Part shown: one piece after another, positions 1 to 44,277 of the stretch
Layout of the letters: each line of letters starts with the position of its first letter
How positions within the stretch are numbered: the first letter of the stretch is position 1
Source: Amyelois transitella
Lineage: Eukaryota; Arthropoda; Insecta; Lepidoptera; Pyralidae
Assembly: GCF_032362555.1 (NCBI RefSeq)
Contig: NC_083514.1
Span: forward strand, 5,565,001 to 5,629,000
DNA: 64,000 nucleotides
Direction of reading: 5' to 3'
Notes under the pieces: model-generated
The model's input: only the letters and a program-made list of their open reading frames with translations
What the model was told of the DNA's origin: nothing
Databases searched by the model: none
Program-made: the position numbers and the translations under genes

Positions 1-3000
1 TGGTGCCAGTAATGTAAGTAAAACATACATACGAGTACATACATAATGATCACGTCTATATCCCTTGCGGGGTAGACAGAGTCAACAGTCTTGAAAATAC
101 TGAAAAATACAACACAGCTGTATGGCTTTATGATGGAAAAAAGATTAAAATAAATAGATATTTTTTTTTTATGAAATTGTTATTATTTAGGATCTAACCG
201 GGATTTACGCCAGGAGGTAGAAGCGGAAAGCCTGGGAAAAATAATCTCCAATTACTGATCACTAATGACTTAGCAGATGTTAACGCCATTATAAGTACGT
301 GTCTGAAGTAAAAAATCGGGGTATTGGCTTTGCGTTTAAAGAGAATCCTTCAAAAAGAAAGAAGTGTATGTTTTGTATAATATCCTATAGTCTCGAATCG
401 CTCCCGTAAGAATTTTCTGAAAAACGTAGTCTAATAAATGTCTGCGCTGAATTTAATTCAAATCGGTCTGTTATGAATTTATTCGACTTTATTTATTCCG
501 ACAATTAATAAAAAGTTGAATATAATTAATCGTGTTCAAAAGCCAAAAATTATCGGTATGAATTGTAACGAAAATATCGAGTTTTTTCTTAGTACCTAAA
601 TGGTTTAATTTGTAGTACTTACGTAGACACATTTAGTTATTTTAATTATATAATTTTCAGGATCGGAAAAGACAGAAGTTATTATGAGAATCTCCTGAAC
701 AAAATCAATGGGTATGTAAATAAGTATATTATAAGTATTAATGTCGTGTATGGTACACGACAGCGATTGGAAATCTTAATTTCTTCAACATAAAACCTAC
801 TTTAGCTTCGCTCGTGCGAATTTGGCGCCACCTACAAAAGAATAAAGCTTTTTCGCAAATCCTACGGGAACTATAGGTTTTATCAAAATCAAAAATAGGT
901 ACCCTATGTCCTTTTCCAGACACTAAAATATATAAACGAGAAATTACAAAAAAAAATATGTTCCGTTAAAACGCGCGAAGAGCTAACCAACAAACAAACT
1001 TCCTTCCGCATTTATAATATTACTTAGTTGGGATAGGGATAGAATTGCCTACATTTAAAGGCAAAGTTTCCTTACGATGTTTTATGTCACCGAGTTTTGG
1101 TTAGAAATCAAGATTACAATAATTATCTTTTTGTTATTTTTGTTTTTACAGAGTATTATTCCCTGGGGGAGCTACATACTTCAACCAATCAGATGGCTAC
1201 GCAGACGCGGGTCAGCATATTTACCAAATAGCTGAGGAGCTGAACAGCCATGGAGACTATTTCCCGGTGTTTGGTACATGTCTTGGTTACGAGCTGCTCA
1301 TCATACTAGCGTCTGGCAGAGGCAAAGTGGAGAACAGGGAGCATTGCCGGTCTTATGGCAACATGCCTCTATATTTTACTGATGGTAACTAATTATTAAG
1401 CATATTACTTAATTTCTAGATTTCCAATTATTAGCCAAATTTTACTGTGATCTACACCTTCACATTGACGAGAACATGTAGGTGCGAGTATAGACTCAGA
1501 CTCGAAGAAGGCAGTAATATCGGTATTTATATTGTAAACCTTAAACGCAATAATAATTGTCGATTCTTAGACAGAAAAAAATCAATCAAGATTCATGAAA
1601 AAATAAAATTATTAAAAATCAAATCAGGAAATATACCTCATTCATATTTCCAGATTTTCGGGATAGCAAAATGTTCAGAAAAGCGCAAGAAGACGTGGTT
1701 ACTTCTTTGGCCAATGAAAACATCACAGTTAACTATCACCAATTTTGCATAATGGATAAGGTTCGTATTGTATTATTTTTATTATGTATTGCACTGCTTT
1801 TTGTGGTTTTTAATACCATCAAACCAACAAAACGAAAGGATCTTGAAAGGTCAAGAAAACTACGGCCGGTAGATTCCTCTTCAGAGACATTTGAAAATGA
1901 TAATAACAATTTTTTTTTCAACAGATTTCATTAATGAAATAGCATATGGAAACACAAATTGATTATCTGCAATTATAAGTACTTATGATTTCGAGCGATC
2001 GTTATCTAAGTAGATAGAAGTATTGTATACGTTGGGTTTTCATTTTGCTTTCTGATTTTATGTATAAATAATATGTGTAAGAGTATGTGTATGGAATAGT
2101 GTAAGAGAAGTATTGAAAGTTACCAAGCCAAATGAGAAGATTATTATGTTAGGTGATTTTAATGGATGGGTGGGTGTAAAGCGTGATGGATATGAAAAGG
2201 TGCTTGGTGCGTTTGGTGACGAAAAGGTGAATGATAATGGAAGAAGTGTATTAGAAATTTGTCTAGAGTGGGATCTTTTTGTGTCGAACTCAATGTTTCA
2301 ACATAAAGAGATCCACACCTACACAAGAGTGGAAGGTATTTTAAAAAGTATGATAGACTTTGTGATTGTAGATGAAAGATTGAAGAACAAAGTGCTGGAT
2401 ACCCGTGCATATCGCGGTGCTGGCATTGACTCGGACCATTTACTGGTGATATCCCGGATAAGGGGTATCTTCAATCGCTGGCGGCACAGGGTAAGGGAGC
2501 AAACGAGCGCTTTGGAAAGAGTAAAAGTAGAAAATTTGCAAGATATGGATGTAGGTAAGAAGTATATAAATAGACTGAAGGATGAATTTGAAGATTTAGA
2601 GGAAATGAGCGATATTGAAGATGGATGGAAGGAATTTAAAGAAAGAATTGTGAAAGTAGCTGTTGAAGTGTGTGGTGTAAGTAGAAGAAGGAAAGGAAAA
2701 AATCACAAAAATGCGTGGATGAGTAAAGATGTGCAAGAACTTGTGCGATTAAAGAAGAAAGCATGGCTGGATTTGTTAGCAGCAAAAGCTAACTTAAGAA
2801 TGCAAGAGGTTATAGATGAAGATGTGAATGAAGCACGTAAGGAATATAAGAAAATGAAAGATTTGGTTAAGAAAGCTGTGATTAGAAAGAAAGAAGAGTA
2901 TAAAGAGGATTTTGATAAAAGGCTATCAGAAGACTTTCAGTCAAATCTGAAAGTATTCTGGAAATCCGTAAGGTCAGCCCGAGGAAATACTATAACCAGA

Positions 3001-5406
3001 GAGCTGACTAGGATCAGATGCCAGGATGGTAGCGTTGTGAAAGGAGAAGAATGTGTACTAAAGATATGGAAGGACTATTTTGAAAGTTTATTTGAAAAAA
3101 AGGAAGGAAATAAGAAAGATTTCTGCTATAGCGAAGAAAAAGAGAATGAGATGGAAGGCGAAATTGAAATGTTCGAAATTGTGGAAGCACTTAAGAGTAT
3201 GAAAGCGGGAAAGGCTGCTGGGTGTGATAGAGTGTCGGTCGAGATGCTTAAAGCAGGAAAAGGCGTAGTAGCTAGTCAGTTGTACTGCCTTTTCAATTTG
3301 TGTTGGAGAAGCGGCCGAGTACCAAAAGATTGGTGTAAGGCTGTTATCGTGCCACTTTACAAAGGAAAAGGGTCACAGCTGGACTGCAAAAATTATCGTG
3401 GTATAAGCCTGCTTAGCGTCGTCGGCAAATTGTATGCTAAGGTATTGATTAATAGAGTCAGGAATGAAACTGATGACAAAATATGGGATGCTCAAGCGGG
3501 ATTTCGAAAGGGAATGGGATGTACTGATCAGGTCTTTTCCTTGCGGTGCATAGCCGAAAAGTTTTTGGCCAAGAGTCAAAAAGTCTATTGCACATTCGTA
3601 GATCTGGAAAAGGCCTATGACAGAGTTGAGAGGAATGAATTGTGGTCAGCACTTTCTATGCATGGGGTGAGCAGTCTCTTAATACGAGCACTGAAATCCT
3701 TATATGAGGATTCGAGTGCTTGTGTCAGGATAAACGGAGCGCACACTGAATGGTTTAAGATTGAGAAAGGCGTTAGGCAAGGATGTGTTGCGTCACCGTG
3801 GCTGTTCAACCTATTTATGGATAGCTGTTTGACAGATTTGAAAGAGTCTAAAAGTGGATTAAGGATGAATGAGTTACTCGTCAAATGTCTGCTCTATGCC
3901 GACGATCAGGTTATACTGGCGTCATCAGCGGAGGAGTTACAGGAGATGGTAAACTGTATGCATGAAGCTTTAAAAGAGAAAGGAATGAAAGTGAACGTAA
4001 GTAAAACTAAAACACTGGTTTTTGAAATGGAGAAAGAAATGACAGCATGTAATATTTTGATTGGAGGAGAAAAAGTGGAGCAAGTGAAAGAGTTTGTATA
4101 TCTAGGATCAAAGTTTACATCAGATGGCAAGTATGATAGTGATATTGAAAGGAGAGTGAACGCGGGGAACATGGTGAATGGAGCTTTGCATGCCTTTATG
4201 AGCAGTCAGAAACTATCCAAAAAGGCTCGACTGGCTGTGCACAGGGGCGTGTTGGTCCCGACATTAATGTATGGGAGTGAAAGTTGGGTATGGCAAAAGA
4301 AGCATGAAAGCAGAATAAATGCAGTGGAAATGAGAGCGTTAAGGAGTATGATGGGTGTGAAATTGAGTGACAGGATAAGGAACAGCGTGATAAGGGAATG
4401 TTGTGATGTGAAAGAAGATGTAGTTACAGGAATAGAAAAGGGTATGTTAAGATGGTTCGGTCATGTGGAGAGGATGAATGAAAGCAGGTTGACTAAGCAG
4501 ATATACAAGGAGAGTGTGGAGGGAAAGGTCGGAGTGGGAAGACCTAGACGAACGTATCTTGATCAAATTAAGGACGTCCTGGTAAAGGGTCAGGTCAAAA
4601 GTACCCGAAACCGCCGAGCTTGTATGAAGAGAGTTATGAATGTGGACGAAGCGAAAGAAGTATGCAGAGATCGTGGCAAGTGGAAAGAGGTAGTCTCTGC
4701 CTACCCCTCCGGGAAAGAGGCGTGATTTTATGTATGTATGTATGTATAATATGTGTATGTGTTTCTCTAATAGGAAAAAATCTATCTGTTCCATATTTGT
4801 TTTACAGAATATGGAGGCTTACAACTTGACTAAAGACTGGCGCGTCACTTCTCACTCGAACGATGATCGTGGAATCAAATTTATCGCTTCTGTTGAACAC
4901 AAAAGGTAAATATAGATAGTTCTATGTCAATCTCTTACTTACTCTCTAATCTAATCTCTTACTTGCATTGATATTCTATCAAACCACTTCGTTAAGCCTA
5001 ACAGGTTACTTTAACAAAGATTTGAAAAGAAAATTTCAAAACATAGGTTATACTAAAAATTATAAACGAAAAGGAGAAAAGAATTTTGAGTTACTTTAAT
5101 TTACAATAAATATATATTATTTTTCCTAATTACAGGTATCCCTTTTACGGAGTCCAGTTCCATCCAGAGAAAGTTCCCTTCGAGTGGAGTAAGAACTATC
5201 CTCGATCATACAAAGCGCTGAAAGCGAATAGACATTTCATGGATTTCTTTGTATCGGAATGTCGGAGGAACCTTCATACGTTTGCCACGGAGACAGAAGA
5301 GAATCAACATTTGATATATAATTACCAACCAAGATTTACAGGACTAGTGGGTAGTTCCTATGAACAATGCTATTTTTTCGAACCTAGGTCAACTGCCAAA
5401 TTGTGA
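1..5406 (+). CDS. GGH: Gamma-glutamyl hydrolase, copy 1 (5' end outside window)
   Basis: A lysosomal or secreted class I glutamine-amidotransferase-like hydrolase that trims poly-gamma-glutamate from folates. Six exons match copy 2 in length and phase: tail of exon 1 at 1-13 (donor gtaagt at 14), then 661-711, 1152-1384, 1654-1760, 4808-4905 and 5136-5406 (TGA). Exons 2-5 are 51, 233, 107 and 98 nt in both copies. The nucleophile Cys lies in FGTCLGYE (exon 3) and the catalytic His and Glu in VQFHPEK (exon 6). The reading frame is intact through every junction. Intron 4 (1761-4807) is about 3 kb because it holds a LINE in the same orientation; without the insert it would be about 370 bp. The exon 4 donor (gttcgt) is weak but is GT. 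The signal peptide and most of exon 1 lie upstream. Family assignment is firm; activity and localisation are inferred. Confidence 0.9.
24..136 (-). mobile_element. SINE fragment (3' half), in intron 1 of GGH copy 1
   Basis: Carries the (catacatac) tail followed by atcacgtctatatcccttg and ggggtagacagag, the 3' end of the SINE family most complete at 48,352-48,605. The 5' half is missing. It sits just inside the intron after the exon 1 donor. Confidence 0.75.
2080..4725 (+). CDS. Endonuclease-reverse transcriptase ORF of the LINE (N-terminally truncated)
   Basis: The frame is open from the first base of the insertion to TGA (881 codons), with no start codon of its own at the 5' edge. Numbering from 2113: the C-terminal part of an AP-type endonuclease (GDFNGW at residue 14, then a SDH motif near 107) is followed by a reverse transcriptase. 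That has the NYRGISLLS finger motif, QAGFRKGMG, catalytic FVDLEKAYDRV near 495, GVRQGC and the YADD box at 595-598. The C-terminus has a basic region with WFGHVERM. No RNase H was recognised. RTE is the best guess for the clade from domain order, the minimal 3' UTR and the tetranucleotide tail. The protein would be made only if transcribed from a neighbouring promoter. Confidence 0.88.
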   Translation, partial: RVCVWNSVREVLKVTKPNEKIIMLGDFNGWVGVKRDGYEKVLGAFGDEKVNDNGRSVLEICLEWDLFVSNSMFQHKEIHTYTRVEGILKSMIDFVIVDERLKNKVLDTRAYRGAGIDSDHLLVISRIRGIFNRWRHRVREQTSALERVKVENLQDMDVGKKYINRLKDEFEDLEEMSDIEDGWKEFKERIVKVAVEVCGVSRRRKGKNHKNAWMSKDVQELVRLKKKAWLDLLAAKANLRMQEVIDEDVNEARKEYKKMKDLVKKAVIRKKEEYKEDFDKRLSEDFQSNLKVFWKSVRSARGNTITRELTRIRCQDGSVVKGEECVLKIWKDYFESLFEKKEGNKKDFCYSEEKENEMEGEIEMFEIVEALKSMKAGKAAGCDRVSVEMLKAGKGVVASQLYCLFNLCWRSGRVPKDWCKAVIVPLYKGKGSQLDCKNYRGISLLSVVGKLYAKVLINRVRNETDDKIWDAQAGFRKGMGCTDQVFSLRCIAEKFLAKSQKVYCTFVDLEKAYDRVERNELWSALSMHGVSSLLIRALKSLYEDSSACVRINGAHTEWFKIEKGVRQGCVASPWLFNLFMDSCLTDLKESKSGLRMNELLVKCLLYADDQVILASSAEELQEMVNCMHEALKEKGMKVNVSKTKTLVFEMEKEMTACNILIGGEKVEQVKEFVYLGSKFTSDGKYDSDIERRVNAGNMVNGALHAFMSSQKLSKKARLAVHRGVLVPTLMYGSESWVWQKKHESRINAVEMRALRSMMGVKLSDRIRNSVIRECCDVKEDVVTGIEKGMLRWFGHVERMNESRLTKQIYKESVEGKVGVGRPRRTYLDQIKDVLVKGQVKSTRNRRACMKRVMNVDEAKEVCRDRGKWKEVVSAYPSGKEA
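2080..4745 (+). mobile_element. RTE-like non-LTR retrotransposon (LINE), 5'-truncated, in GGH intron 4
   Basis: The insertion is flanked by a perfect 12-bp direct repeat, ataatatgtgta, at 2068-2079 and 4746-4757. It ends in a short (TATG)n tail right after the stop codon, typical of RTE-clade LINEs. The 5' end falls inside the endonuclease domain, so the copy is dead-on-arrival, yet the remaining frame has no stop or frameshift. Together with the perfect duplication this points to a recent insertion. It lies in the sense direction of the host gene. Confidence 0.92.
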
Positions 5407-20709: not shown

Positions 20710-20712
20710 TAA

Positions 20713-22760
20713 CACAGGCCTGCAAAAAAAAAAATTTTTTGGTGCAGCCCTGTTAGTGTCTATGTTCGATAAAGTAGGTAATGTAGATTATTGCCTAACG
20801 CCATTTTAACTCATCAGCTGTAGTTTTCGTTCTACCCTCGTTTTCAATTTTTGCCTGTCTTGGTCGTAAAAAGTCATTATTACAATAACATCGATTAAGT
20901 TTATGTTGATATTTCATTATGGCTAGTACGTCCAGATGTTGTGTTAACAATCCTGATCAATTTTGTTATGTTTGTGGTCAATTCATACTGAAAGGTCAGC
21001 GCAAATCAATTACAAACACGGTAAATCGTTTGTATTTTGCTTACTTCGGAATTGAAATTCGACAGCAAGATAAAGTGTGGGTGCCTCATAGTGTTTGTAA
21101 AATATGTGTTGAACATTTGCGACAATGGGAGAAAGGTACACGCAAGTCTTTGAAGTTTGGAGTATCTATGATTTGGCGAGAACAAAAAAATCATTTTGAC
21201 GACTGCTACTTTTGTATGACTAATACGGTGGGCATCAACAAAAACAATCGCCATAAATGGAAATACCCTAATATTCCTTCAGCACAAAGACCTATTCCTC
21301 ATTCAGAAAATGTTCCAATACCAACTTTTCACCAGGAAGTGCAGCAATCTCACGAGGATCAAGTTGAAAAACCGGTTTCTTCTGAAGATGATTACTTTAA
21401 ATACTGCGAAAAAACATCAAATCCTAAGCCTTTTTCGCAGAAAGAGCTTAATGACCTTATCAGAGACTTAGATCTTTCTAAGGAACGTGCTGAATTACTG
21501 GCGTCAAGATTAAAAGAAAAAAACTGTCTTACTGCAGATGTTCGAGTGTCTATATATCGCACGAGAGAACAAAGTTTATTGCAGTTTTTTTCATCTGATG
21601 AAAATTTTGTGTATTGCTGTAATGTGAGTGGTTTGCTAACTTTCATGGGTTTGCCAACCTATCAGCCCAATGAATGGCGTCTCTTTATTGACAGTAGTAA
21701 ACGAAGTCTCAAAGCAGTTCTCCTACATAATGGAAATAAATATGCTCCCGTTCCAATTGCTCATTCGACATGTGTGAAAGAAGAATATGAGGTAATTTCA
21801 ATTCTGTTACAGAAAATAAAATATTTTGAACATGTCTGGGTGATCTGCGTCGACTTGAAGATGGTTAATTTTTTACTGGGCCAACAGAGTGGTTATACTA
21901 AATACCCATGCTATATTTGTCTCTGGGACAGTCGAGCCAAATCACATCATTGGACTCAAAAAAATTGGCCAATGAGAGATGCTCTTGTTGTTGGGGAAAG
22001 AAACTTTATAAATGAATCCTTAGTTTCAAGAGAAAAAATCATTCTTCCGCCATTGCATATTAAGTTAGGGCTAATGAAGCAATTTGTTAAGGCTCTCGAC
22101 AGAAATGGGCAATGTTTTCAGTTTATTTCACGGAAATTTCCTGGTTTAAGTACTGAAAAACTGAAAGCAGGGATCTTTGATGGACCTCAAATACGTCAAT
22201 TAATGAAAGACACCGCTAATTTTGAGACTTATATGAACGAACTGGAAAGACTTGCATGGAAATCTTTTGTAGCAGTTACACGAAATTTCCTCGGAAATCA
22301 TAAGGCTGAGAACTATGTTAACTTAGTAGAAGAAATGCTAGTTTGTTTCAAAAATTTAGGGTGTAATATGAGTATAAAAATACACTATCTCCATAGCCAT
22401 CTGGATCATTTCCAACACAATTTAGGAGATCTAAGCGAAGAACAAGGAGAACGTTTCCACCAAGATATAAAAACGATGGAGAACAGATATCAAGGAAGAT
22501 GGGACGTTCATATGATGGCTGATTATTGCTGGGGAATCATGCGAGATTTTCCAAGTCAATTTCATTCCAGGAAATCTTTCAAAAGGCAATTTCTTGATGT
22601 CTAATGCCAATAAAGTTTTTTTTTGTGAAATTTATGTTTTTATTTATATCGAAAACTAGAGCTGATAGAAAAAAACTGATAACATTTTTGATATCACCAT
22701 GTAAGACTTATTTAAAATCAGGTCCAAAACCCCCGGCATCAAAATCGTTGTAGGCCTGTG
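20713..22760 (+). mobile_element. Complete DNA transposon, CACAGGCCT termini, TAA target duplication
   Basis: The left end cacaggcctgcaa (20,713-20,725) and the right end, read in reverse, cacaggcctacaa (22,748-22,760) agree at 12 of 13 positions; similarity continues weakly inward. The element is flanked by TAA at 20,710-20,712 and 22,761-22,763. It is about 2,048 bp with a single intact intronless gene. CAC-type ends with a 3-bp duplication recall the CMC (CACTA/Chapaev) group, but the assignment is open. Confidence 0.8.
20919..22604 (+). CDS. Putative transposase with N-terminal zinc cluster (561 aa)
   Basis: Single-exon frame starting MASTSRCC; the ATG is 206 nt inside the left terminus. 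Cys pairs at 16/19, 60/63 and 96/99 form a probable zinc-binding DNA-recognition region, broadly like insect ZAD domains. The middle (about 110-200) is low-complexity and charged. The C-terminal half looks like a D-D-E nuclease fold: FIDSSKRSLK with Asp258, ICVDLKMV with Asp312, followed by CYICLWDSR (Cys331/334) as in several eukaryotic transposases, then LPPLHIKLG (His380) and LSEEQGERFHQ with Glu507, 508 and 511. The catalytic role of these residues is inferred from spacing. Terminal repeats bracketing the gene support transposase over a host gene. The frame is intact, so the copy may be young. Confidence 0.8.
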   Translation: MASTSRCCVNNPDQFCYVCGQFILKGQRKSITNTVNRLYFAYFGIEIRQQDKVWVPHSVCKICVEHLRQWEKGTRKSLKFGVSMIWREQKNHFDDCYFCMTNTVGINKNNRHKWKYPNIPSAQRPIPHSENVPIPTFHQEVQQSHEDQVEKPVSSEDDYFKYCEKTSNPKPFSQKELNDLIRDLDLSKERAELLASRLKEKNCLTADVRVSIYRTREQSLLQFFSSDENFVYCCNVSGLLTFMGLPTYQPNEWRLFIDSSKRSLKAVLLHNGNKYAPVPIAHSTCVKEEYEVISILLQKIKYFEHVWVICVDLKMVNFLLGQQSGYTKYPCYICLWDSRAKSHHWTQKNWPMRDALVVGERNFINESLVSREKIILPPLHIKLGLMKQFVKALDRNGQCFQFISRKFPGLSTEKLKAGIFDGPQIRQLMKDTANFETYMNELERLAWKSFVAVTRNFLGNHKAENYVNLVEEMLVCFKNLGCNMSIKIHYLHSHLDHFQHNLGDLSEEQGERFHQDIKTMENRYQGRWDVHMMADYCWGIMRDFPSQFHSRKSFKRQFLDV

Positions 22761-24129
22761 TAATGTATCACAATCTTTAGAATAAATAGGATAAATAAAT
22801 TACGTATCTAAAAGAAAACCGGTAGGAAATCGCGAATCTGGCTCAGGAAATAAATCAACGTTTCTCCATAGGCCCGATATACTCGTAACAATACGAAACA
22901 CGTCCAATAACACTGTTATTTATTACTTTCGTGTATCGTACAAATACTACTTGTAAGTTTTGGGGAGCTTCTCACGGGAGCGGTTATTGACCCAATAAAT
23001 TATTAGCGTTGTTGGTAAACGGTAATGTATAACGAGGGCATTATGCGTATTTACATAAGCGTAAAACAAAGTTTTACTGCTATCTAGGCTGTTATCTTTA
23101 AGCGAAAGTTACCCAAAACGCTTAACTTTCCTCTCAATTCCATTAAGTAGTACTCATATATAAGAGATATATCTGTGAAATCCAAATCTTTTTCTTTTTA
23201 TTAAAAGAGTGACAAGTAGCATTAAATCTACATCATTGGTGAAAATATCTTTTCTGATAAAACGTTTACGAAATCACCTTTGTCATTTCAAATAATAATA
23301 CCGCCAAGTTATCACAAACTTTTTGAATTATTAAATTATTCCGTGTTCAACGAAGGTCTCACCTTCCAAAATTCTGTTTGAAAGATATTGAAGAAAGTTC
23401 TTGGGCGCTGAAGCTTAGTTGGCCTAGTTCCTGAAATAGCTTACAGAAATATCTGACGGTCGTTGACATTTTTCTGTCTAAGTTACATCAAGATGAAGCA
23501 TTTTACTTTGCCAGTCTGTTTTCTTATCAAGACGGGAGGCAAAACAACTTGTGAACTTTGTTGTGTGTTTTTTGGGAACAAATTTAAGCTTTGGAACACA
23601 GTCTTATGGTTTACGTCAAATCATATCATCTTTAAGCTCCGTGGTGACTTTCGAAGCAAGTTATTTGAATACAATATTATGTAACCACAGAAATTTGATT
23701 AATATTATTCTGATTTCTGTGTTTTATCAAGATCGTGACAATGTTTTTTCTTGTTAGTTTATTTCCTTTTTTTCTTATTCATGTCCTGCTGATGTTTATA
23801 TGCCTCTCCGTCTTTAGGTAGTTTTGTTATAAGCGGTAAGTGGTATCCACAGCGTTGGTCTATTATAAGTTTTTAGATCACCAGATCATCGTCAGTTCCA
23901 GCAGCGAGCAACAATTATTTAACTCCATTCCAACTTATTTCCAAAAAAGGAATAAGTAAAACATTAAAAATACTCGTACCTTAAAATAGTTCTTAGTCCA
24001 AATGGAGTTTCAACGTTGCAGAGAAAAAAGGAATGACTCGCTTTTTCTTTTTGTTTCTAATTTCTGGCAGTAAGACAAAAGAAGCGGCATTATGGGTATA
24101 AAAAATTATCCGGTAGTTCCCGTCATTTT

Positions 24130-28928: not shown

Positions 28929-31900
28929 CGTCGGTTTAATTATCAGAATTCGTAACTCCGTTAGGAAAAATTTTACAGGAGCAGGTAAAAACCAATTATT
29001 TCAGTAATTAATTGTTATTTTTTAACGTGCACTTGCATTTTGAACTAAAATCGAACAAGGAATTGATTTTTCTGGTTATTTTTAATTTAGTAACAGTGAA
29101 TATCTAAGAAAATGGACTTACGAACTTTTCTACGTGATTTTATTTGGAGTTACGAGGTGTAAAATGGAGTTAGCATTTTTTATCTTTGAATATTTTAAAA
29201 TGATATTGGAATTACGCGGTATTACCACAAACTAAACACTTCTTCGATAGGTATAATGAAAAATGCCAGATAAAACTTAAGTATTATTTATTTAATGCAA
29301 AAAGAATGTCTGTTATACAGATATAAAACACAGTTTCTAAACTTAAATCTAGTAGCTTGACTTAACTTATAAGGCGTAATCAGTCTCAAAATTAGGTTTT
29401 AAAAGTCTTAGGAACAAAATACGTTTCTTAACTATCTATTAAATTTATCAAAAACAAAACACAGTTGTGAACTATGTTCACGTAAATGAGGTAAGTTCTT
29501 ATATAATTAGTTAACATCTTATCATACCTATAGGTAACATTAAGGTTTTTATGGCAAAATCAGTCTCAACGTTTTAATGCGATTTTTAAGGAACAAACAA
29601 TCATTATTTTTATTATTAGTATACCAAAGAAACTAGTTAGCAAACATAACATTAATCAAATAAAAGAAAATATCGATAACCGTTTTAAAAATGAGGTAAA
29701 TCATCATAAAATTTGTGGTAATCTTTTTCCATTGAACTTTTCAGTTCCTGGAGATCCATGTATTTGTCTTTTGTAATTTGCAATCTTGCGGAGTACAGCG
29801 GAGGTATATCATTCCATGGCACGAAGCATATTTTTTTAATCCTGATAGGAAGCTCTTCCCAAACAATACTCGAGTGTCTTAACTTGTAAACAATCTTTCC
29901 TTCGGAATACTTCAGAGCTCTCAGATTTGTGACCACGGGATCACCAGACTTTTTCCCCGGTCTTATAGACTTGTAAAAAGTCAGGGTATTCTCAATGTTT
30001 TTGAAAAAATGATGATAAAGATACTCAACTTCATAAGGACTTTTCTTGCAGGCTGTTTTGGCCAAATATGCATAATCTGCTGGAACATTTATCTTTTTGT
30101 GCCTCATTGCTCTCTCTATGACGGAATGCATACTGTCGCACTCCATCTGGGTATGTCCTTTTTCAAGAAACTTTTGAACGACAGTGATCTTGTGCTGCAT
30201 GCTAAAGTTGAGCAACGAATTGGCCAGTACAACATTTCTGTTTTGATATGTACAGCCATCACTGTATAAAATCAGTTCCTGCCCATCAGACATGGGGTGT
30301 TGATTTATGAACTTTCCCAGTGCAGTTACAATTATAGTAGAAAATTCATTACTTGAAAGTTTTCCTTCACATTCATTCCAGATGTAACAATATCCTTTGT
30401 TTCGTTTAACGTCATACAGAGTAAAATTGTGTACAATAAGTTTTCTTTTGTAGTACAGGGAAGAAACATTTGATTGCGGGCTCAAAAGCACAGACTGTAA
30501 ATCCATGGTATACACTTCGTTATTCGAGGAAGTGTCTTTTGTCAATTCATCGCGAGCTTCTTTTTTCATATCTTGATGTATCTTGTAGTCGGATTCTGTA
30601 ATATTTTTCGTTTTAAATGACTCACAAGTTTCGCACAGGTCTTTTTTTGGTCGAAACAGCGATAAGTTTAGCTCATCAAAAATATTACAAAAAGTGGCGA
30701 TGCTTAAAGGTTCAGCATTTTTTTGAGAGCAGAAGTCTTTTGTATAAGCCTTGTATAACTGGGATTTTGATGTCCATAGTGGTTCTAAATATAGTTTTGA
30801 AGAATCCTTACGACAATAGTGTGATTCCAGTTTGGGTAGGGAATCGAAAAATCGTCGTAACTGTTTCTGCGGCTCCGCCTTGACATTATTTTTTGGTATA
30901 TTTTTCGGTGTGCCATCATCGCATATAATCCATTTTTTGATAACCCATTCGCCAACACTCAAACTGTTTAGAAACATTCTTTTGCACACCCGATATCTGT
31001 TCCCTTTGCTATCCGAGAGATATAATTCCACAGAATTTTCTCGTCTTGAGGATGTTCCAGCAGATCTGTTTCTTTGTTTTTGTTTACAAACAGACAACAT
31101 TTTGATGAAAACTTTCTTTTCTTTCCACGTCATTTTCCAAAAATCTTTGAAGCATTTTTGTCGCTCTTCTTCTGGTATTTCTTTACACTGTAACTTTGTA
31201 TTACCTCTTGAACTTAGCTTACAGTTGCATCTGTCTTTAATCTTTCTCTCATTCTTGATCTGTACGAAACGCCATTTATCGTCAACTTTTTTCTTGCCCA
31301 AATATGGTTGACCTTTCTCCCTCTGATCTTTATTTTTATTAACGCTCCAATCCTGAGGACGACTCTTTTTGTTTCTTTTCTTTTCAGTTGTTGTCATAAT
31401 TTGTTCGGGAAAATCATGTTGGTGACTTAATGTAGTGCCTGATGAACAGGTAGCCTTTTCAGAAACATCCTGGTAATTCTTAATTGTCTCATCATTTACT
31501 GAAATATCATCGTTAAGAGATTTAGGAACAGATGATGTTAGATATTTTTCTGATAGGCCCAAAGTAGTCTCGTTCGTCAGTGTTTCTTGAGAGTCCATCG
31601 TAACATCCTGTTCTAAAATATTACAATGAATGTCAGATGTAGTCGGCATAATTATAGAATCGTTTAATATGGAGATACTGCACGTCGAACTACTTGTTGA
31701 TCGTTTTCGGAGAGATCCGTCACTGCAGATAATTATATTTGTTGGAGTGCCGCAAATGCGTACTTTAGTCGGGCTATTTTCCTCTTCCTCTAATAGCAAA
31801 GAACAATCTGGCTGTAATGTATAAGACCCTGGTTGAATTTTTGATAATTCGATATCCGGCAAAGCAATTTGATTCGGAATATTTCGGCAAAGTATTGGTT

Positions 31901-32599
31901 CTGATACGCCATGGTCAACGTTTTGGAGTATTTTTAAAGTTCGAGGATTTTTATACATGATAGTTGTTATATCTGAAAAATAAATAAACAAATTAAGCTT
32001 CCTAAAGCTGATTAGGTGTAATAGACTCCTACACAAAGTATGCAAGCATTTCGGAAAGTATGAGTAGGTACCTAGTATCATCAAACGAAGCTTCAACATC
32101 CTTTAATAATAATGACAAACAATAAAATCAATCAAATAAAACTTCGTAACTCCTTAAGCAATTTACGTATTCTTACCCCAAACAAAAAAATAAAACATCG
32201 TAAGTCCACTGTAATATTTATTTTCCTTTTTGTCGCATTCTAGTTAATATTTCGAGGTTCATTTTTATTTAATAAGCTTTATAATTATTTACCAAACAAA
32301 AGGAATACATAATAAACGTTAAAAATAAAAGTTTACGTACTTTTTTCTAAAGAGCGCACGCACGTCCTCCCCTTGCACAAGCAAAGCCGTACTGAGCGCC
32401 GGAGATACGCACATTGGGTAAGACAAAATGGCGGCTTGGAGATAAGTGTTTTTATTATACGTCGATAGCAAATTTTGCAGTATTTTTTGGGAAATAAGAA
32501 GTATTCCATCTGGTAGGTAACCAAATGCACCACTAGATGGCATCAAAAGTCAAATTTCGTATTTTTGTGGAGTTACGCATTCTGATAATTAAGCCGACG
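28929..32599 (-). mobile_element. Complete DNA transposon with 31-bp TIRs, ATAT target duplication
   Basis: Left terminus 28,929-28,959 and right terminus 32,569-32,599 are inverted repeats matching at 29 of 31 positions; they start cgtcgg and end gtaactcc. ATAT flanks both sides (28,925-28,928 and 32,600-32,603). Inside, the octamer core recurs symmetrically: ggacttacg at 29,114 and ggagttacg at 29,146 on the left, cgtaactcc at 32,145 and cgtaagtcc at 32,199 on the right, as expected for transposase-binding sites. One intact gene runs leftward. The 4-bp duplication and D-D-E/D-like protein suggest a Sola-type superfamily, with low certainty. Confidence 0.9.
29685..31958 (-). CDS. Transposase of the 31-bp-TIR element (757 aa)
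   Basis: The ATG at 31,958 (MYKNPRTLKI) is preferred because a splice-acceptor-like sequence (tatttttcag on the minus strand, just upstream at about 31,975) suggests a 5' non-coding exon; an in-frame ATG at 32,099 would add 47 residues. The N-terminal third is Ser/Thr-rich with a basic patch (KKRNKKSRP). A Cys-containing DNA-binding-like region and a CETCESF cluster precede the core. Core motifs: TMDLQSVL (Asp486), a KL.VHNFTLYD block, LILYSDGCTYQNRN (Asp567) and EKGHTQMECDSMHS (Glu606/Asp608). Such D, D, E/D spacing is that of an RNase-H-fold integrase. No stop or frameshift interrupts it. Related proteins are often annotated as uncharacterised in arthropods. Confidence 0.85.
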   Translation of the reverse strand: MYKNPRTLKILQNVDHGVSEPILCRNIPNQIALPDIELSKIQPGSYTLQPDCSLLLEEEENSPTKVRICGTPTNIIICSDGSLRKRSTSSSTCSISILNDSIIMPTTSDIHCNILEQDVTMDSQETLTNETTLGLSEKYLTSSVPKSLNDDISVNDETIKNYQDVSEKATCSSGTTLSHQHDFPEQIMTTTEKKRNKKSRPQDWSVNKNKDQREKGQPYLGKKKVDDKWRFVQIKNERKIKDRCNCKLSSRGNTKLQCKEIPEEERQKCFKDFWKMTWKEKKVFIKMLSVCKQKQRNRSAGTSSRRENSVELYLSDSKGNRYRVCKRMFLNSLSVGEWVIKKWIICDDGTPKNIPKNNVKAEPQKQLRRFFDSLPKLESHYCRKDSSKLYLEPLWTSKSQLYKAYTKDFCSQKNAEPLSIATFCNIFDELNLSLFRPKKDLCETCESFKTKNITESDYKIHQDMKKEARDELTKDTSSNNEVYTMDLQSVLLSPQSNVSSLYYKRKLIVHNFTLYDVKRNKGYCYIWNECEGKLSSNEFSTIIVTALGKFINQHPMSDGQELILYSDGCTYQNRNVVLANSLLNFSMQHKITVVQKFLEKGHTQMECDSMHSVIERAMRHKKINVPADYAYLAKTACKKSPYEVEYLYHHFFKNIENTLTFYKSIRPGKKSGDPVVTNLRALKYSEGKIVYKLRHSSIVWEELPIRIKKICFVPWNDIPPLYSARLQITKDKYMDLQELKSSMEKDYHKFYDDLPHF

Positions 32600-43092: not shown

Positions 43093-44277
43093 TTTTCTTT
43101 TTTCAATATTAAATCTCATAAATATATAAATCTCCCGTGAACAATGTATTCTCCCGTCCACATTCTATTCTAAGTATAATTTAATATTGTGAAGTTGACG
43201 TTGTTGAAGAAAATGTTGCAGTGCAGTTTGTTACCGCTTCTTCTGCACTGACGCCTTGGAAGCGGCAGTAAACTTAGTTTTTAAGTAATTTATTTGACGT
43301 CAACCAAGTTGTTAAACCATACGACAATTATTAAGCGATATAATAATATCCTATAATAATGAATAAAAAATTTTGAATTTTGAATTTTGAAATATAGAAA
43401 AAATATTTTCTCTTTATAAGCGACTTAAGATTTAATCACTAATATGTCTGTATTAATTACTGCGATAGTGAAGTTAAATTATGAGTAATATGAAATAATT
43501 TAATAATATGACCCAATAAAATATATTTTGATTTGTATTCCATAACTAGGTCTTATCTTAATTGACAGCCATAGTCTGCCATTGGTCTGTTTCAAAGGTA
43601 GTGTAGTCTATCTACATACATAAGACAAATAATAAGAAAAAAATGTAGAAACAACAGATTTTTTTACGGAATATACACATGTTTTAAAAATTTTTGATAT
43701 TCTTACAAGGCAGTGTGTACCACTGTAGTTATACGACACAAATAAAAACTTCGAAGTAATTACCAACTAATATTTTTAAATGTTTAAAATAAGTTTTACG
43801 AAAAGCAGATCCAATTACAAAGTCACGTGGTCACATGGCCCCAATTAAATAAACAAGCACGTTTCTACTTTTGACTTCATTTGAGTGTTGTTGAATTCAT
43901 AAGATTTCATTAACACGCGAAAACGTAGACTAATAATAACTTATATCGGAAACATTGTAATAAAAATGAACATATTCATTCAAATCATTTAATAAGTAAC
44001 CAAAAGCTGTATGATTAATGTTAAATGATATATTTTACCAATTAGAATCCATTGAATGGGGCTAATGTAATAATTTAATTCGAATCAATTTTAATGTTGT
44101 AATTATTTAGAAATCTTAATGTGGCGATAGCTATATAAATCATTAGAATTAAATATCTATGCATTTCGGGAAAAAACACAAAAATAGGAATAAGAAAAAA
44201 AATCTATGAATATCTGATCGAATATTTAAGCTGGTTAATCGATATGTCAGCCATCTGTTCATATTTACAGTATTTCC

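Follow-up and report, generated by a model that had tools for sequence, protein, structure and literature searches.

Chapaev elements are described as having CAC/GTG termini and target-site duplications (TSDs) that are generally 3 to 4 bp long, and as encoding transposases with characteristic C(2)C, LH and H(4)H motifs, which are present in the silkworm transposase (PMC4079192). In the same description, all Chapaev3 elements examined lie within TWA TSDs between an A and a T, as confirmed by empty sites, and most other Chapaev3 appear to be single-exon, unlike the two-exon Garfield of the silkworm (PMC4079192). Garfield is an insect Chapaev3 family with members listed in Lepidoptera, of which the silkworm element Garfield_BM measures 2,289 bp and encodes 556 aa (PMC4079192). 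Conan, found in tenrec and lizard, falls into the same Chapaev3 group (PMC4079192). A complex N-terminal zinc finger named Chapa has been reported for Chapaev3, as well as for Chapaev, TransibSU and RAG1, where it occupies the N-terminal part (PMC4411706).

Here, we describe an element of 2,048 bp at 20713-22760 of the window, the whole 64,000-nucleotide stretch of Amyelois transitella DNA that was analyzed (GCF_032362555.1, contig NC_083514.1, positions 5,565,001 to 5,629,000, forward strand). With a probability of roughly 0.93, we read it as an autonomous-type cut-and-paste DNA transposon of the Chapaev3 group (CMC), a placement made by printed hallmarks and not by a tree. We favor Chapaev3 because the ends, the A-TWA-T duplication, the C(2)C, LH and H(4)H motifs and the size all equal those hallmarks. 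An earlier sequence-only reading of this DNA had left the superfamily uncertain, with a hint of CMC from the termini; the hint proves right, and the uncertainty gives way to the agreement with Chapaev3. The clear match to a described superfamily that the same reading had named as grounds for abandoning its verdict exists on hallmarks and not through a direct sequence tree.

The element has inverted ends CACAGGCCT, a TAA duplication and one frame of 561 aa. Only two exact matches to CACAGGCCT occur in the 64-kb window, at 20713-20721 (+) and 22752-22760 (-), in inverted orientation. They belong to a 13-bp terminal inverted repeat with one mismatch, CACAGGCCTGCAA / CACAGGCCTACAA, whose left copy, CACAGGCCTGCAA, starts the element at 20713-20725 (+) and whose right copy, at 22748-22760 (-), reads TTGTAGGCCTGTG on the plus strand. 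The TAA duplication flanks these ends at 20710-20712, with an A just upstream, and at 22761-22763, with a T just downstream. A subterminal inverted copy of the left-end motif lies at 20735-20753 (-), 84% complementary to 20714-20732, and could possibly act as a second transposase site or as an aid to end recognition. The transposase gene is a single open frame without internal stop at 20919-22604 (+), has relatives elsewhere in the genome, and is followed four bases after its end by an AATAAA (22609-22614, +) that may serve as a polyadenylation signal. Ends, TAA duplication and intronless 561-aa gene are thus present as first read from the letters, and the ends recur at eight genomic places.

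Garfield_BM and the window element are alike in CAC/GTG ends, A-TWA-T context, motifs and protein size, a comparison with the published description of Garfield rather than between aligned sequences (PMC4079192). They differ in gene structure: in Garfield and Merrow, the transposase is split between two exons (77-78 plus 477-484 aa in the listed rows), against one 561-aa frame here (PMC4079192). A single coding exon is also found in Conan_ET, which is smaller, with 1,865 bp and 461 aa against 2,048 bp and 561 aa (PMC4079192). Both latter values agree with the Chapaev3 range of about 2.0-2.5 kb and 556-562 aa, with sister frames in the same genome of 549 and 560 aa.

In the A. transitella genome (327 Mb, 33 contigs), C10, which carries the window, starts with a CCTAA repeat of the kind found in insect telomeres, and C33 (15,205 bp) looks mitochondrial, with tRNA-Gln a short way ahead of an ND2-like frame, a tRNA order that would suit Lepidoptera. 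A search of this genome with the transposase yielded 78 scored matches among 193 candidates, which is a lower bound. The window copy (L001) belongs to at least eight insertions (L001-L008, hereafter group A) that share 96.7-100% protein identity, and retrieval of the genomic copies, a check proposed with the sequence-only reading, confirmed CAC...GTG ends and a 3-bp TSD in eight of eight. The uninterrupted 561-aa frame is kept in two of them, L001 and L002. A single internal stop interrupts the frame in each of L003 and L004, L008 has a frame break and a stop, the frames of L005 and L006 shift near codon 26, and L007 is an internally deleted copy of 1,313 bp that retains its TSD. The ORF of the window copy is intact, as it would be in a host gene derived from a domesticated transposase rather than in a mobile element. 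Such a gene is hard to reconcile with eight dispersed, near-identical copies that each have a TSD and of which six have broken or shortened frames, or with the same repeats existing both occupied and unoccupied (see below). Also against it, the window copy and L002 show nearly the same dN and dS (0.0067 and 0.0060; few changes), as would be expected of copies drifting after insertion. We reject the host gene on the dispersed TSD-bearing copies and the unoccupied sites, and put its chance close to nil.

The mobile family so defined is young: DNA divergence within group A averages 0.86% (range 0.20-1.37%, 28 pairs). Set against the six or seven other members of group A that span each position, the window copy differs by 10 private substitutions and by a one-base gap; seven of the 10 lie in the ORF and five of those seven change an amino acid, so that its own activity is not assured. 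The suggestion that the element is intact and may be recently active therefore suits the family, and its sister families even more, and is not specific to the window copy. L005 and L006 occupy two different sites on C32 with TSDs of their own, are both frame-shifted at the same codon and differ by 0.20%; at least one of them therefore probably moved with a broken frame, with transposase acting in trans. A search for MITE derivatives of group A with its left 206 and right 156 bases led to seven and eight places, respectively, all within the eight known copies. No MITE burst is seen for this group, the search counts being lower bounds.

We sorted the related copies into four further groups: B (L022-L038), C (L039-L042), D (L010, L011, L013, L015, L016, L017 and L019) and E (L009, L012, L014, L018, L020 and L021). 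By this sorting of our own, at least five Chapaev3 groups coexist in the genome, with protein identities of near-full-length copies to the window transposase of about 61-63% for D, 61-62% for E, 49-50% for B and 48-49% for C. All 17 fetched group-B copies are 2,093 bp long and diverge by 0.04% on average (maximum 0.14%, 136 pairs), and in L022 and L023, the two that were read, the 549-aa frame is intact; group B looks very recently active. The four fetched copies of group C show a mean divergence of 0.09% (six pairs) with an intact 560-aa frame (L039), and at least 18 matches to the group-C protein span the whole 560 aa at 99-100%, 17 of the 18 without a stop. As candidates for present-day activity, groups B and C rank above the window copy. 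An in-frame TAG seen in group-B matches was considered as read-through, an intron or the amplification of a dead copy, all of which we rejected: translation of L022 shows it to be the natural stop after the 549-aa frame, past which the search alignment had run. Ends in group E were obtained for three of six copies in a scan that required equal TWA repeats, and are not counted as evidence. Two group-E copies, L018 and L020, have CACTGGTCAACA ends like those of group B, while their transposase stretches are up to 70% identical to that of the window, against 49% for B; end exchange or shared ancestral ends are possible.

Using end patterns derived from the copies themselves, with at most three mismatches allowed, we found both termini for 35 of the 36 copies examined in groups A-D, the one exception being L016, whose left end was not found; two further end combinations for L006 (2,843 and 3,364 bp) were dropped as spurious before counting. 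The left end begins with CAC in all copies of groups A (8/8), B (17/17) and C (4/4) and in five of six in group D, where L011 begins with GAC, and the right end is GTG in 35 of 35. Exact 3-bp repeats flank 33 of these 35 copies (A 8/8, B 17/17, C 3/4, D 5/6), L041 in group C and L019 in group D being without a clean duplication. The duplication is TWA in 27 of 35 (A 8/8, B 11/17, C 3/4, D 5/6), and the repeat lies between an A and a T in 8/8 group-A and 16/17 group-B copies, a preference for A-TWA-T. The remaining six of 17 group-B duplications are ATA, TAG (twice), AAA, TAT and TGA, a looser choice than is reported in the published account (PMC4079192). We regard group B as a strong candidate for being active today, with less strict target selection.

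Unoccupied counterparts of these insertions also exist. The joined flanks of 33 copies, compared with the window and 42 loci, gave joint-spanning matches for two, both from group B. Those of L023 (TAG duplication) match a repeat with no gap over 231 bases; those of L024 match an unoccupied stretch of the window itself (43211-43387), where the alignment has small gaps, none of them at the joint. A genome-wide search with four group-A copies found empty sites for two of them, L005 and L006, and returned only their own flanks for the window copy and L004. With L006, two unoccupied places match at 99% (one spanning exactly 300 bases for the 300 of the joined flanks, the other 299), followed by more diverged relatives; with L005, 16 matches tie at the top, each spanning 300 bases for 300 at 99%, among 40 listed matches of 67 candidates. 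From the repeats together with the unoccupied sites, it follows that the duplication is 3 bp and that the elements were truly inserted; mobility counts among the features shown here. Thirty-two of the 40 listed L005 matches lie on C32 (12.4 Mb), which is very repeat-rich and which, as a guess, is possibly the W chromosome.

CACTA and Transib ends resemble CAC...GTG, which counts for an origin of the element in some other CMC or Transib-type branch (Chapaev proper, Mirage, CACTA/EnSpm or Transib). Ends of this form are likewise given for Chapaev generally (PMC4079192). Set against such an origin are the 3-bp TSD shown by the unoccupied sites, the A-TWA-T context in eight of eight group-A copies, as described for Chapaev3 (PMC4079192), and a protein whose size and motifs fit Chapaev3. 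Transib in particular is set aside because the TSD here is 3 bp, against the 5 bp printed for the Transib-type element TransibSU (PMC4411706). We consider membership in another branch improbable and retain Chapaev3.

The transposase itself was compared across six proteins, those of the window, L002, L009, L011, L039 and L022, which are 49-98% identical to that of the window. At its N-terminus (20919-21233, +), six cysteines in three pairs, C16/C19, C60/C63 and C96/C99, are invariant in all six proteins, as is H92. This cluster is a probable Chapa zinc finger, which it fits in place, and bears a weak resemblance to zf-AD; as regards the likeness to Chapaev, Transib and RAG1, no RING finger was seen in the window protein. 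The putative DDE catalytic region (21690-22481, +) holds the Chapaev3 motifs C331/C334, L379-H380 and H489-x4-H494 together with D258 (codon 21690-21692), D312 (codon 21852-21854, both counted from the ORF start) and E508 or E511 as the candidate third acidic residue. D258, D312, C331, C334, H380, H489, H494, E508, E511, H514 and D516 are invariant in six of six transposases and L379 in five of five. Positions that vary include H492 (D in 1/6), E507 (D in 2/6) and E521 (K in 1/6). The cysteine pairs, D258, D312, CxxC and H380 picked out from the letters of the window alone thus hold throughout; of the EEQGE motif noted with them, E508 and E511 stand, while its E507 is D in two proteins.

Database searches with the protein gave little. 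A Pfam-A search of the whole window protein matched no transposase model and returned sub-threshold matches only (zf-AD, E 0.0028, 18.3 bits; DUF2750, E 0.05), sequence searches of the PDB gave nothing credible, and no homologue was found in viral contigs, prokaryote genome contigs or phages, as expected for an animal element. The lack of a match to any Pfam transposase model, PDB chain, viral contig, prokaryote genome or phage could point to an undescribed superfamily of DNA transposon; the prokaryotic and viral collections, however, are unsuitable for finding relatives of an animal transposon, and the Chapaev3 hallmarks match one by one. We reject a new superfamily on the match to the printed hallmarks and regard it as very improbable. 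For the Chapaev3 transposase, structure prediction had been proposed as a test for an RNase-H fold; the full-length single-sequence AF2 model (pLDDT 38, pTM 0.23) is too poor to show one and gave no confirmation. The same model (pLDDT 38) places strands at 253-258 and 305-310 and a helix at 507-524 that spans E508/E511. A strand ending at D258, another just before D312 and a helix at E508/E511 would fit an RNase-H-type DDE enzyme, a likeness that proves nothing.

We propose that the N-terminal zinc-finger cluster of the transposase most likely serves to recognize the CACAGGCCTRCAA ends and that the element would be excised by an RNase-H-type active site formed by D258, D312 and E508 or E511, with both the fold and the third acidic residue putative. 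Hairpins form in the RAG and Transib cousins. Insertion would then occur with a 3-bp stagger at A-TWA-T, repair of the gaps giving the TWA duplication, and frame-broken copies would have been moved in trans.

The N-terminal cluster raises the question of a link to the ZAD of insect zinc-finger proteins: the two could be homologous, a Chapaev3-type transposon having been either the source or the recipient of ZAD, an idea we hold to be unlikely. zf-AD is matched by five of five whole transposases (best E 0.0012) and by five of six N-termini (best E 2.3e-4), with scores that fall under the curated cut-off in every case where it was shown, and the N-terminal 105 aa of the window protein score 21.7 bits, below the gathering cut-off of 28, and hence do not count as zf-AD by the Pfam criterion. 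For profile comparison, 15 of 20 zf-AD loci were tried, of which L058 and L059 had no pattern match and L048 and L050 were left out as C2H2-like, giving 11 ZADs from the same genome. Local hhalign against these 11 gave a score of 25.3 and a probability of 42.7% with two CxxC pairs in register, and none of 30 column shuffles with cysteines fixed reached that score (highest 22.0, 19.5%). Global mode, run without shuffles, counts against homology (score 20.3, probability 10.9%). The second half of the cluster also has a competing match to BIR, with C-x2-C...H-x6-C spacing (Pfam, three of six members, best E 0.051; PDB, E 0.56), and a PDB profile search with the N-terminus had no ZAD chain among its matches. 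The fold lends ZAD no support either: with an N-terminal model of pLDDT 51, Foldseek placed none of 209 listed matches at E <= 0.001. In the excerpts returned by a literature search, no report was found that links ZAD to Chapaev or Chapaev3.

The window contains other probable mobile elements. An 805-aa stop-to-stop frame at 29685-32102 (-) has a weak match to DUF7869 (E 1.4e-5, below cut-off) and 59 matches in its own genome, of which three, itself included, are 99-100% identical over the full length; it is probably another mobile family. An 885-aa stop-to-stop frame at 2068-4725 (+) has a reverse transcriptase domain (RVT_1, E 2.9e-41) and is probably a non-LTR retrotransposon. GC skew is strong, at 0.42, over 2001-4000.

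Our analysis settles a doubtful annotation, in that the element fits Chapaev3, a group for which horizontal transfer between species has been reported (PMC4079192). The ZAD link, if true, would be relevant to how a large class of insect zinc-finger transcription factors arose. With at least five Chapaev3 groups, two of which (B and C) are almost undiverged and have intact frames, the A. transitella genome is a good place to seek a currently active Chapaev3.
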